Below, piece after piece: positions 1 to 3,801 of a DNA stretch of 64,000 nucleotides (position 1 is its first letter; each line of letters starts with the position of its first letter). Origin of the DNA: Clostridia bacterium (GTDB taxonomy: Bacteria > Bacillota > Clostridia > Oscillospirales > CAG-272); contig JAFQFR010000034.1 in assembly GCA_017398595.1 (NCBI GenBank), positions 1 through 64,000 of the forward strand, given 5' to 3'. Made by a program: the position numbers and the translations under genes. A model generated the notes under the pieces. It saw only the letters and a program-made list of their open reading frames with translations. It searched no databases and was not told the origin of the DNA.

Positions 1-61
1 ATTTATTTTTACAACAATGAGCGAATTCAACAGAAAACCGGACAAACCCCGATGGAAGTCC

Positions 62-147
62 GTTATGCTTATGTTGCATAACAGGTGTCCGATAAAAATG
101 TCTACTTGACAGGGGGCGTGTCACATTTCTGTCCGATTTATAGGACA
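62..147. promoter_or_regulatory. Inverted and direct repeats in the left intergenic region
   Basis: This stretch lies downstream of the minus-strand repressor gene and has no gene. It contains a perfect inverted repeat, GTTATGC at 62-68 and GCATAAC at 76-82. A direct repeat TGTCCGAT occurs at 86-93 and 130-137, and the second copy forms an inverted repeat with GGACA at 143-147. The arrangement resembles operator DNA, possibly for a gene left of the window. No protein can be assigned to it. Confidence 0.3.
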
Positions 148-181: not shown

Positions 182-949
182 TTACCCGCGCGAGCGCAGT
201 GTACCGATCACGGTGCCGCGGCAGGAAAAGCTGCCGAACGAGGAGAGCGGGATGGGCGCATAGTCCTGATTCAACGAGATCAGACAATCGCCGCCGAACT
301 TCTTGAAGTAGCCCTCACCGTCGCAGATGAAGATGCCGAGCTCACCCACGGCGATCTCAGGCGTGTTTTCCACTAAGAGAATGTCGCCGTCGTGGAAGCG
401 GGGCTCCATGGAGTTGCCCGAAACGCGAAGCGCAAAGTCCGCGCGCTTGGTCTTCTCGTTCTCGACTACGCTGATCTCGGTCGCTTCGTTGGATTCGAGG
501 TGAATGCCGACACCCGCGGAAACACGGTCTGCAAAAAAGGGAATCTTGAGCATGCGCGCCTTGGCAGAAGCGGAAACTTTCGGACGGGAAATGGGTTCGG
601 GAATTTCTACGCGAACATTTCTCGACACCGCGGCGCAGCGGAGATACTCTTCCTCTAAAATAAAGTCGCACACGCGCGCACCGTGCGCGTCGAGCGCGCG
701 GTATTTTTCCAGGCGCGTTGTCTCCACCTCGCTCAAGGAGATCGGCTCTTCCTTGCCGGTAGCAAGATACTCCAGCGAGCAGCCGAGCGCATCCGCGATG
801 GCGATCGCCGTGGAGAGCTTCACGCCCTCGGTACTGCCCGAAAGCAGCTTGCCGAGCGTGCCGAGCGGGATGCCGCTCGCCGCAGAAAGCGCCTCGTTGG
901 TGATTCCTTTTTCCTTTTTAATGCATTTTACCCGTTCGGAAAAACTCAT
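182..949 (-). CDS. LexA/CI-like repressor with HTH_3 and S24 self-cleaving domain
   Basis: A 255-residue transcriptional repressor. Residues 5-65 form an HTH_3 (Cro/CI) DNA-binding domain, and residues 135-250 an S24 peptidase domain. The cleavage site Ala145-Gly146, catalytic Ser180 (in GNSMEP) and Lys217 are spaced 35 and 37 residues apart. That is the spacing of E. coli LexA (A84, S119, K156), so damage-induced self-cleavage is likely. The start ATG follows an AAGGAG ribosome site. It is divergent from a small membrane protein, and both promoters carry the same T4C2A4 box, so autoregulation is inferred. It is not a canonical LexA, because the HTH is CI-type. It could be a host SOS-like regulator or a domesticated phage repressor. 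Confidence 0.85.
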   Translation of the reverse strand: MSFSERVKCIKKEKGITNEALSAASGIPLGTLGKLLSGSTEGVKLSTAIAIADALGCSLEYLATGKEEPISLSEVETTRLEKYRALDAHGARVCDFILEEEYLRCAAVSRNVRVEIPEPISRPKVSASAKARMLKIPFFADRVSAGVGIHLESNEATEISVVENEKTKRADFALRVSGNSMEPRFHDGDILLVENTPEIAVGELGIFICDGEGYFKKFGGDCLISLNQDYAPIPLSSFGSFSCRGTVIGTLRSRG

Positions 950-1020
950 GGCAAACTCCTTTATATGACAGTATGTGAGGAAAATAATGAAAAAAACAGA
1001 ACAGATTTATCTTTATTTCG

Positions 1021-1049
1021 ATTATAACATTGATTTTCCAAAAAGTAAA
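1021..1049 (-). promoter_or_regulatory. Promoter of the S24 repressor
   Basis: On the minus strand a -35 TTTACT (1044-1049) and a -10 TATAAT (1021-1026) are separated by exactly 17 bases. The spacer contains a TTTTGGAAAA box that abuts the -35 element. It drives the repressor gene leftward. Confidence 0.65.
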
Positions 1050-1137
1050 GACTTTTTTCGATATTTTTCCAAAACAGATAAAAAATATTTTCCCTTTCGG
1101 AAATTTTTTCAAAAAAATGTATTGACATTTTCCAAAA
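1034..1137. promoter_or_regulatory. Candidate operator array, TTTTCCAAAA boxes
   Basis: Three exact copies of TTTTCCAAAA lie at 1034-1043, 1065-1074 and 1128-1137. A fourth, dyad-like site (TTTCC, 5 bases, GGAAA) lies at 1089-1103. The two outer copies sit inside the spacers of the divergent promoters, each directly touching the -35 hexamer. This is the layout expected if the S24 repressor shuts off both genes. Binding is inferred, not shown. The box does not resemble the usual Firmicutes LexA site. Confidence 0.55.
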
Positions 1138-1150
1138 GTGGTGCTATCAT
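1122..1150 (+). promoter_or_regulatory. Promoter of the 92-residue membrane protein
   Basis: A consensus -35 TTGACA (1122-1127), 17-base spacer and -10 TATCAT (1145-1150) precede the gene at 1191. The first ten spacer bases are a TTTTCCAAAA box. A near-consensus promoter with an internal operator suggests strong expression once repression is lifted. Confidence 0.75.
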
Positions 1151-1190
1151 AGAGACACAAAGAAACAAGACAAGCAGGGAGGCAGTACAC

Positions 1191-1469
1191 ATGAACGCAT
1201 ACAACGCTTACGGATACAGAGAAAATGCTATGGCGAGAAGAAATCGCTCGGCACTTGTCACCATGCGTCGTTTTCTGCGTGCGGTGTTCTCCGTTCTCGG
1301 CGAACGCCTGAGCTCTCCCGAGGCGCGCGTGGCAGAGGTGATCGGCAGCTTCGTAGTTGCCCTTGGTCTCATCGGCGGTATGGAGTCGGGCACGGTTCCG
1401 CTCTACATCGGTCTGCCCGTTTGCTTGGTGCTCGCAGCAGCAGGTCTGCTCACGCACTTTGAAGATTAA
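1191..1469 (+). CDS. Small two-helix membrane protein divergent from the repressor
   Basis: A 92-residue protein of unknown family. The first 40 residues are polar and rich in Arg, Asn and Tyr. They are followed by two hydrophobic segments (about residues 45-60 and 68-88) that would form a membrane hairpin. The ATG is chosen because a GGGAGG ribosome site and the 1122-1150 promoter sit just upstream; an earlier in-frame ATG would overlap the promoter. Its position opposite a LexA-like repressor, with a shared operator box, suggests a damage-inducible product. A membrane growth or division inhibitor, analogous in role to YneA or SulA, is one possibility, but there is no sequence resemblance to either. 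Confidence 0.7.
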   Translation: MNAYNAYGYRENAMARRNRSALVTMRRFLRAVFSVLGERLSSPEARVAEVIGSFVVALGLIGGMESGTVPLYIGLPVCLVLAAAGLLTHFED

Positions 1470-1549: not shown

Positions 1550-2851
1550 TTAATTTCCTTTCAGCACCTTTTCAAACGCATCGGCGAAGGCGAGGGCGGC
1601 TTCGTTGGCTTCGGACAGGCTGTTGCCGCAGCTGCCGATCTCGAGGAGCAGACCGTATTTGGCATACTGCTGGTTGTAGGATGCACCGCGCAGATAGAGC
1701 TGTCGCGGTATGCCGAGTGTGTCGTCGCAGAGATGCTGCTGGATCGCTTCGGCAAGCACGAGATTGCTTTCCCAGTCGTATTCGCCCGCACCTTTCTCAT
1801 CCGAACCGATGATGATCATGAGCTGTGCGCAGGGCTTGCCGTTTCGGAGCGTCACGGGGCGGAGCTTGGTCAGGTCCGAGCGGATAAGCGAGTCGCGGTG
1901 TACGTCGAACACATATTGGATCGACGGATATTTTTCGAGATAATACTGAATGCTTTCCGCCGAGCGCGTATAGGCGGCAATGTAGGATTCCTTGTCGTGC
2001 ATGGTTTCGCAGTGGATCGTCGGAATGCCTTTTTTGTTGAGCGCTTCGCAGAGCGTTTCGCCGACAGCGACGATGTTTTCGGATACGTCTTCACTGCGCG
2101 GATGGTTGAAGTTCTCGCCGTAGCAGATCGAATCCTCGGCGGAAAAGCTCTCGGTGCCGTGTGTGTGTACGATCAGCACCAGCGGTTCGCTTGTAATGGC
2201 TTCCGCTGCGCGCAGCTTTGCCGCCTTCGAGATCTCCTGCATATCCACATTGTAGGTCGTGTCGTTTTTGAGATCGGTCGCACTGTCGGCGCTAAGGTCG
2301 GTGGGAATGATCGGATAGGCGCCCGAGGGCACTTTGGAATAATCGAAGGAATAGAGGTCAAACATCTTTTCCTCGAGCGCTTCTTGCTCGTAATAGATCT
2401 CATCCGCGATCTGCTCTTTCGGTATGTAATAGATGCGCGGCAGCGCGATCGACGCTTGCAGGGATGCGTTGATCTCCTCTTTTTCCTCGGCGCTGAGGGT
2501 AAGATCGCCGAAGGCGACTGCACTCATGCGGTCGCCGAGCGTTTTGGGCTCGCCGTCTACGCAGAGCAGCTCTTCGCTGAGGTATTCCCAAAAGCCGCGG
2601 GAAAGGATCTCGTCCAGTTTTTGCAGCGCGCAGAGCAGGAGGGCGAATATAGCGGTCATTGCGCAGAAAATACAGACAAAACGCTGCAGAGCATACCCGC
2701 GGGAGATCTTTGGCTCGGGGGTGGGCGCATCGCTCGGCGGGGGGAGCGCATATGGCAGGGACACGGGTTCGGCAGTGCGATCGGCAGACTCGTCTGCTGG
2801 GGCTTCACTGTTTTCGGTATTCTCTTGTTCTTTGAGAAGCGGCTCGGGCAA
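1550..2851 (-). CDS. spoIIP: Stage II sporulation protein P, SpoIIP
   Basis: SpoIIP is a cell-wall amidase/endopeptidase. It works with SpoIID and SpoIIM to thin septal peptidoglycan during engulfment of the forespore. The 433-residue product has an N-terminal Pro/Glu-rich cytoplasmic segment, one membrane helix (about residues 53-79) and a C-terminal amidase-like domain. The domain carries the family motifs HTHGTE, DVHRD and LEIGSCGN, whose His and Glu residues are the expected zinc ligands and catalytic groups. The start is TTG at 2851, six bases after AAAGGAGGG. A TTG eight codons earlier would place the ribosome site inside the gene. It lies 41 bases after gpr, the usual Firmicutes order. 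Confidence 0.93.
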   Translation of the reverse strand: MPEPLLKEQENTENSEAPADESADRTAEPVSLPYALPPPSDAPTPEPKISRGYALQRFVCIFCAMTAIFALLLCALQKLDEILSRGFWEYLSEELLCVDGEPKTLGDRMSAVAFGDLTLSAEEKEEINASLQASIALPRIYYIPKEQIADEIYYEQEALEEKMFDLYSFDYSKVPSGAYPIIPTDLSADSATDLKNDTTYNVDMQEISKAAKLRAAEAITSEPLVLIVHTHGTESFSAEDSICYGENFNHPRSEDVSENIVAVGETLCEALNKKGIPTIHCETMHDKESYIAAYTRSAESIQYYLEKYPSIQYVFDVHRDSLIRSDLTKLRPVTLRNGKPCAQLMIIIGSDEKGAGEYDWESNLVLAEAIQQHLCDDTLGIPRQLYLRGASYNQQYAKYGLLLEIGSCGNSLSEANEAALAFADAFEKVLKGN

Positions 2852-2892
2852 GGGGATCCCTCCTTTCTTTTTCAACTATAGGATTATATGCG

Positions 2893-3771
2893 TTAATACA
2901 GGAATAAACTGTCGATTGCGGCGGAAAGCAGCACGCTGACGCGGTCGCTGATGCGGTCGCTTTGCCGCGGCGAAACAAAAAAGCTCTCGCCCTCGTGCAA
3001 AACGCGCTCGATCTTTTCATCCACCTCGGTGTATCCCGCGTTTTGCAGTGCGTCGTAGACCAGCGTCGCCGAGTTGACCACCGTGGGGACGCCGACGGCG
3101 ATCACGGGGATGCCGAGGGTGTCCCGGCTGATCTCACTGCGGCGGTTGCCGATGCCGCTGCCGGGGAAAATGCCGCTGTCCGAGATCTGCACGGTGGCGC
3201 CCAGTCGCGCGGTGGAACGCGCCGCCAGCGCGTCGATGGCGATGACAAGGTCGGGGGACGCGTGGTCGCACACGCCGCGAATCATTTCGGCGGTCTCGAT
3301 GCCGGTCTGCCCCAGCACGCCGGGTGCGACGGCGCAGAGCGGCACTTTGCAGAAGCTGTCAAACAGTTTTTTGTTGTGCTGTTCGATGTGGCGCGTGACG
3401 GTCAGGCGGTCCACGGTGCGCGGACCGATGCTGTCGGCAGTGATCTCGCGGTTGCCGAGCCCCGCCACCAGTACGCAGTTTGGCTTGCGTCCGAGCAGTG
3501 TTTGCGCGAGTGCGCCGATCTCGTCGGCGACGAGTGCGGTCAGCGCGTCAAACTGCGTATCGGCGATGTCGCAGATCAGCTCCGTAAAGACCGTGACGTA
3601 TCTGCCGCATCGCTTGCCGGTCGTGCGTTCGCCTGTCTCGTTTTCCACGGCGAGCCGCGCCACGCGGAAACCGCGGATGCTTTCCTCCGCATAGTCGGTG
3701 CCGCACTTGCCGCCGTCGTGTGTCGCTTCCGCTTCGCAGGCGAGATCTGTGTGTATGGTGTAGCCTTTCAT
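2893..3771 (-). CDS. gpr: Spore germination protease GPR
   Basis: GPR is the protease that degrades small acid-soluble spore proteins at germination. It is made as a zymogen in the forespore. The 292-residue product matches the family along its length, including VLVAGLGNREITADSIGP and IAIDALAARS. The N-terminal TDLACE (residues 8-13) resembles the self-processing site, so the propeptide would be only about seven residues, shorter than in Bacillus. The ATG at 3771 is preceded by AGGAGG; an upstream in-frame ATG has no such site. It forms an operon with spoIIP. The ribosome site overlaps a 10-bp hairpin in the leader. Confidence 0.95.
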   Translation of the reverse strand: MKGYTIHTDLACEAEATHDGGKCGTDYAEESIRGFRVARLAVENETGERTTGKRCGRYVTVFTELICDIADTQFDALTALVADEIGALAQTLLGRKPNCVLVAGLGNREITADSIGPRTVDRLTVTRHIEQHNKKLFDSFCKVPLCAVAPGVLGQTGIETAEMIRGVCDHASPDLVIAIDALAARSTARLGATVQISDSGIFPGSGIGNRRSEISRDTLGIPVIAVGVPTVVNSATLVYDALQNAGYTEVDEKIERVLHEGESFFVSPRQSDRISDRVSVLLSAAIDSLFLY

Positions 3772-3775
3772 ATGT

Positions 3776-3801
3776 CCTCCTTTGCGGCACAGCCGCAAAG
3801 G
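3776..3801 (-). promoter_or_regulatory. Leader hairpin overlapping the gpr ribosome binding site
   Basis: In the gpr mRNA, CCTTTGCGGC and GCCGCAAAGG (3792-3801 and 3779-3788 on the plus strand) form a perfect 10-bp stem with a 3-base loop. The 3' arm runs into the ribosome site AGGAGG (3776-3781). The fold could limit gpr translation. The rest of the 285-base gap to the next gene, up to 4056, holds the promoter at 3965 and no other gene that I can see. Confidence 0.55.

Follow-up and report, generated by a model that had tools for sequence, protein, structure and literature searches.

In Francisella, a chromosomal S24 repressor of phage type, FddR, binds a palindrome and controls itself together with a divergent gene of unknown function; it was proposed as the first step in the rebuilding of an SOS network, and recA is not induced there (PMC13148647). 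A non-canonical LexA of Bacteroidetes regulates itself and SOS genes (PMC8565304). In the lexA-yneA and lexA-sosA pairs, canonical LexA controls the gene of an inhibitor with one span, a C-terminal part outside the cell and usually a LysM domain (PMC6851548). Among the Bacillota, the LexA-like repressors HdiR and IrvR of lactococci and streptococci combine XRE and S24 domains, and IrvR adjoins its main target irvA. The present work concerns a gene pair in positions 1 to 64,000 (the window, meaning the whole stretch analysed) of contig JAFQFR010000034.1 from the 1.88-Mb genome of a Clostridia bacterium (CAG-272; GCA_017398595.1). As an earlier note on this DNA had described, a repressor gene and the gene of a membrane protein without known function share one divergent promoter region, 950-1190. 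Based on sequence comparison, the locus is best explained as a self-contained, autoregulated unit of SOS type whose regulator would also control recA in wider relatives, and this explanation is considered fairly likely.

The locus is like FddR in combining a chromosomal phage-type S24 repressor with a palindrome and a divergent gene, and in the window's genus the unit resembles the core of the FddR network. It differs from FddR in its operator (TTCC-N6-GGAA instead of GTG-N11-CAC), in the presence of this dyad at recA in wider relatives, and in belonging to a different phylum. With the non-canonical LexA of Bacteroidetes (PMC8565304) the repressor shares a CI-type helix-turn-helix (HTH), an S24 domain and intact cleavage residues, whereas the operator here has an N6 spacer and the candidate regulon comprises the repressor gene, the membrane protein gene, recA and rarely uvrB. 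It belongs with HdiR and IrvR as an XRE-S24 protein of the Bacillota; however, IrvR is independent of RecA, its target irvA is Cro-like and not a membrane protein, and the operators differ. As in lexA-yneA and lexA-sosA (PMC6851548), the gene of a small membrane protein faces away from that of a repressor of SOS type, here with putative operators in between; however, the repressor is not canonical LexA, and the membrane protein has a predicted C-terminal hairpin, no LysM domain and no sequence match. A literature search, outside which subscription journals mostly lay, found no report of this repressor family or its operator in Clostridia.

The operator was derived from relatives of the repressor in public genomes, of which 472 were confirmed and the best 80 of the 472 were taken for comparison. 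They come mostly from metagenome-assembled genomes of Clostridia or Oscillospiraceae from ruminant guts. The element repeated in 50 related divergent promoters is a 14-bp dyad, TTCC-N6-GGAA. In these regions, TTCC and GGAA pairs peak sharply at a spacing of 6, with 128 sites at no more than one mismatch against about 7 in shuffles, and exact dyads number 26 against 0.5 in shuffles. Smaller peaks at spacings 0, 5 and 7 are attributed, at least partly, to dyads flanked by T and A that are read in a shifted register. At least one dyad site was found upstream of the repressor gene in all 77 loci with enough upstream sequence. The comparison thus agrees with the claim of the earlier note that the repressor has an operator code of its own, but not with the code named there, the T4C2A4 box TTTTCCAAAA. 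Because the divergent regions of relatives repeat TTCC-N6-GGAA, T4C2A4 is read from sequence as a single half-site with an AT spacer, that is, half of the dyad and not the operator itself. The putative operators are established by comparative genomics, and an autoregulated unit working on this dyad is very probable.

The same dyad (one mismatch or none) stands upstream of recA in all 30 wider relatives reached via the repressor, 21 times exactly, compared with 4 of the 23 genomes in which no clear ortholog of the repressor is present. The sole exact site among these controls belongs to a genome from the same family that is 82% complete; G007 was removed from the controls because it carries the repressor and an exact dyad. 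A GAAC-N4-GTTC box within one mismatch was found at recA in none of the 30 repressor-carrying relatives. In 27 of 29 promoters (upstream regions L191-L220) the centre of the site falls between -60.5 and -63.5, and in 15 pairs a second site lies 61-63 bp further up. Since the operator also marks recA in nearly all wider relatives, the system is probably an undescribed branch of the bacterial DNA-damage response that does not use LexA. Nearer relatives are mixed: a recA dyad is present in G007, G010, G022 and G023, a GAAC-N4-GTTC box takes its place in G018, and neither occurs in G009, G021 or the window's genus. The link to SOS drawn in the earlier note gains from the recA dyad of the wider relatives; in the window's own genus recA has no such dyad.

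Other SOS genes were also considered as targets. An exact dyad was found at uvrB in one relative, a single clear case among the 25 wider relatives examined, so uvrB was rejected as a general target, and dinB was rejected for want of a convincing site. In six genomes with canonical LexA (L330-L333, L335 and L337), two GAAC-N4-GTTC boxes were found at dinB, whose promoter contains no dyad; LexA and the CI-type repressor therefore seem to divide the SOS genes between them. With respect to the functional sense of LexA in the Bacteroidetes study (PMC8565304), the repressor described here has spoIIP and gpr as chromosomal neighbours, and sites upstream of its own gene (77/77) and, in wider relatives, of recA (30/30) and uvrB (1/25). 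Whether the name LexA fits in this functional sense would depend on induction by damage and on how broad the regulon is.

The sites could belong to another S24 regulator, either canonical LexA or a second XRE-S24 family, with the window's repressor gene as a mere member of the regulon. Many genomes indeed encode such proteins: canonical LexA was found in 15 of 40 genomes, and another S24 regulator also occurs among them. However, 16 of the 30 genomes with a recA dyad (these being drafts) show no LexA above the cut-off, the second XRE-S24 family lacks a dyad ahead of its gene in 12 of 13 cases, and genomes lacking the repressor but having LexA or other S24 matches show few recA dyads. Moreover, the LexA-type boxes mark dinB instead, and the dyad co-varies with the recognition helix of the window-type repressor. 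Ownership by another regulator is accordingly judged quite improbable. As to the co-variation, all three repressors whose recognition helix carries Asn next after TL (three genera) go with TACC-N6-GGTA and no TTCC dyad, and TTCC dyads prevail where Gly, Ala, Ser or Thr takes the same place (90 repressors). Because there are only three cases, two of them sisters in the tree, this apparent co-variation in a small sample is support and not proof. In the tree (midpoint root), the window-type repressors cluster together, separate from canonical LexA and from a different XRE-S24 family encoded in the same genomes. The membrane-gene operators have preferred centres at about -114, -50 and +14, i.e. 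64 bp apart (promoters of L077-L156), and such strict phasing at recA and at the membrane gene suggests a cooperative assembly.

The repressor gene (182-949, minus strand) encodes 255 amino acids, with a CI/XRE-type HTH at about residues 5-69 and an S24 peptidase domain at 137-248 (Pfam HTH_3 and Peptidase_S24). Its structure model resembles the C-terminal domain of LexA, including RecA-bound LexA, and the HTH of P22 c2 and 434 Cro, so that model and Pfam agree with the combination of CI-type HTH and LexA-like S24 domain noted earlier. The hallmarks of an S24 autoprotease, an Ala-Gly bond and a Ser-Lys dyad, are present, and self-cleavage is predicted. The predicted cleavage site A145-G146 (codons 512-517), catalytic Ser180 (410-412) and catalytic Lys216 (302-304), all on the minus strand, are invariant in 13 relatives. 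Positions 145 and 180 had been named correctly before; the lysine had been placed at 217, a residue which varies, and the invariant one is K216. Canonical LexA was rejected as the identity of the protein: the equivalog model TIGR00498 gives 32 bits, against a cut-off of 110.95, and covers the C-terminal part only, the HTH is of CI type and not the winged HTH of LexA, and the operator is not GAAC-N4-GTTC.

In the divergent region, three exact copies of TTTTCCAAAA were confirmed at 1034-1043, 1065-1074 and 1128-1137, and no others exist in the 64 kb. The distances between them, 31 and 63 bp, correspond to about 3 and 6 helical turns. Since the sequence is not self-complementary, the two promoter boxes differ when each is read along its own promoter, appearing as T4C2A4 in one case and as T4G2A4 in the other. 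The repressor promoter (1021-1049, minus strand) consists of a -35 element TTTACT (1049-1044), a 17-nt spacer and a -10 element TATAAT (1026-1021), of which the -10 and most of the -35 are kept in the six genomes of the genus set, all drafts of 53-84% completeness. The membrane-gene promoter (1122-1150, plus strand) has TTGACA (1122-1127), a 17-nt spacer and TATCAT (1145-1150) with an extended -10 TG at 1142-1143; its TTGACA is identical in the six genomes and its -10 differs at one base. A ribosome-binding site, GGGAGG (1177-1182, plus strand), lies 8 nt ahead of the ATG at 1191. The boxes at 1034-1043 and 1128-1137 abut the -35 elements of the repressor and the membrane gene, respectively, and the third copy and the dyad variant at 1089-1103 are also where the earlier note had placed them. 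At the orthologous loci, three exact boxes were found in the window and its nearest relative and two in each of the remaining four genomes, and a 24-bp stretch, TATTGACATTTTCCAAAAGTGGTG, is identical in all six. Its end doubles as the extended -10, so its conservation speaks only partly for an operator.

Four sites can be read against the dyad. O1, TTCCAAAAAGTAAA (1036-1049), is a half-match with 2 mismatches which overlaps the repressor -35 and includes the box at 1034-1043; in relatives its place is occupied by TTTTCCGATTTGTAAA. O2, TTCCAAAACAGATA (1067-1080, 2 mismatches), includes most of the box at 1065-1074. O3, TTTCCCTTTCGGAAA (1089-1103), has 1 mismatch in either of two registers, and its GGAAA half is retained in 5 of 6 genus genomes. 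O4, TTCCAAAAGTGGTG (1130-1143, 2 mismatches), lies between the -35 and -10 of the membrane gene and includes most of the box at 1128-1137; it is identical in the six genomes, and its GGTG also makes the extended -10. It might be argued that the boxes arise incidentally from the AT-rich sequence of promoters, since the region is very AT-rich and T- and A-runs are common near promoters. However, two or more copies arose in none of 5,000 dinucleotide shuffles of 950-1190, the spacing-6 peak is sharp, and 24 bp are identical in six genomes, so this explanation retains next to no probability.

The facing gene (1191-1469, plus strand) encodes a 92-amino-acid protein. Its N-terminal helix is charged, and two predicted helices, 43-66 and 71-90, form a hydrophobic C-terminal hairpin around a loosely conserved motif, G-x-x-G-[GA]-[MIV]-E-x-G. 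Orthologs of both the repressor and this protein occur in 6 of 6 genus members, and the membrane protein keeps the same place in 49 of the 77 wider relatives. The structure model has a pLDDT of 74, and a Foldseek search with it returned only helical ribosomal proteins at E above 0.2, which were taken as meaningless. The role of the membrane protein is inferred solely from the position of its gene. At one locus (L021, G007 contig 9), the gene facing the repressor encodes instead a 164-aa protein which by eye resembles YpsA/DUF1273.

Taken as an SOS-type unit, the locus would work as follows. The XRE/CI-S24 protein would bind the four TTCC-N6-GGAA-type dyads within 1034-1143, three of which are spaced by whole helical turns, and would thereby shut down its own gene and the divergent membrane-protein gene. 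Upon DNA damage, RecA filaments would trigger cleavage at A145-G146 through S180 and K216, the unit would be derepressed and the small membrane protein made; a trigger of this kind is considered likely. The protein would most likely serve as a membrane-level brake in the manner of YneA/SosA, and a brake on growth or division is put forward only tentatively. The same regulator would also control recA in the wider relatives examined, where a site near -61.5 is compatible with repression as well as activation.

Several observations weigh against this scheme. The binding of the repressor is deduced from sequence, and the window's own sites are imperfect dyads with 1-2 mismatches. The recA site at about -61.5 sits upstream of the core promoter, a position from which an activator could act as well. 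In 28 of 77 loci there is no membrane gene, profile libraries gave no significant family for its product, and the layout of known division inhibitors is absent, the model predicting a C-terminal hairpin and no LysM match being found. S24 regulators can also act without RecA, IrvR being an example. Within the window's genus, no convincing dyad was found at recA, uvrB or dinB, no operator of either kind upstream of recA when read to about 5 kb, and, in the six members, no clear excess of a stricter half-site/dyad pattern over the control beyond the locus itself. These scans were pattern searches together with chosen stretches, which weak sites elsewhere may escape.

In this genus recA follows gyrA-like and lipoprotein-like genes (L319, L321-L324; named by inspection), and LexA above the cut-off was found in 1 of the 6 draft genomes. 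The module appears to be a local unit only, because recA lies behind gyrA, outside the regulon, and the SOS reading there rests on the protein and its relatives. The earlier note had raised the possibility that the box itself defines a regulon. In the 1.88-Mb genome, 34 exact copies of TTTTCCAAAA were counted against 19 of the reversed control, but the other copies that were read fall mostly within coding frames and have no good dyad partner, so T4C2A4 was rejected as the mark of a regulon. The lack of any SOS gene under the same operator in the genus would also fit a stress switch independent of RecA and DNA damage, with self-cleavage that is either constitutive or set off by stress, to the envelope or of another kind, and a membrane protein that responds to this stress. 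IrvR, a LexA-like repressor adjoining its main target, self-cleaves without RecA, and PrlP of streptococci responds to acid, oxidative, osmotic and heat stress. The recA dyad in every one of the 30 wider relatives is nevertheless hard to explain without a role in DNA damage, and such a switch is considered unlikely.

The unit is adjoined by spoIIP and gpr, the germination protease gene (window 1550-3798), and many of the relatives L077-L156 likewise have spoIIP- and gpr-like genes next to the repressor, even where the membrane gene is absent. This setting bears on whether the pair could be the lysis-lysogeny switch of a remnant prophage, a CI facing an early gene without any host role. The CI-type HTH, a phage repressor family as the best PHROG, matches to phage repressors at about 25-36% identity and the same dyads in mobile elements of two relatives would agree with such an origin. 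However, the flanking genes recur likewise in many relatives, the gene pair is conserved throughout the genus and well beyond, no Cro-like gene lies opposite the repressor, and the dyad stands at a host recA; a prophage switch is thus very improbable.

Returning to the SOS-type unit, it is moderately likely that in a large group of gut Clostridia a CI-type repressor has been co-opted, with an operator of its own (TTCC-N6-GGAA), to govern recA together with small membrane effectors of a new family, and that this repressor sometimes replaces LexA and sometimes works beside a LexA that keeps dinB (a split SOS), the window's genus having the unit without recA. If so, the capture of SOS functions by phage-type repressors, as described for Bacteroidetes, Streptococcaceae and Francisella, would extend to abundant gut Clostridia. 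Three states would stand side by side, namely the local unit alone, the unit with recA, and the unit with recA while LexA is still on dinB, which makes the model of a divergent unit first and a network later directly testable. The comparison also yields an operator motif that can be put to use, and a new family of membrane proteins that are candidates for induction by damage.

Some further observations concern dyads and repeats elsewhere. Paired exact TTCC-N6-GGAA dyads were seen at L226/L312 (G050 contig 78) and L227/L313 (G073 contig 108), adjoining genes that resemble those of replication proteins or integrases, and further S24 repressor genes (types assigned by inspection), as if mobile elements in G050 and G073 used this dyad too. 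Exact TTTCCGCTTGCGGAAA palindromes, which match the operator pattern, recur at L222, L233 and elsewhere in G041, G047 and G074, and seem to be a dispersed repeat of another kind. The contig start, just downstream of the repressor gene, is likely an assembly break; window positions 1-81 (plus strand) encode IYFYNNERIQQKTGQTPMEVRYAYVA, which we take to be the C-terminal end of an IS3-family transposase.
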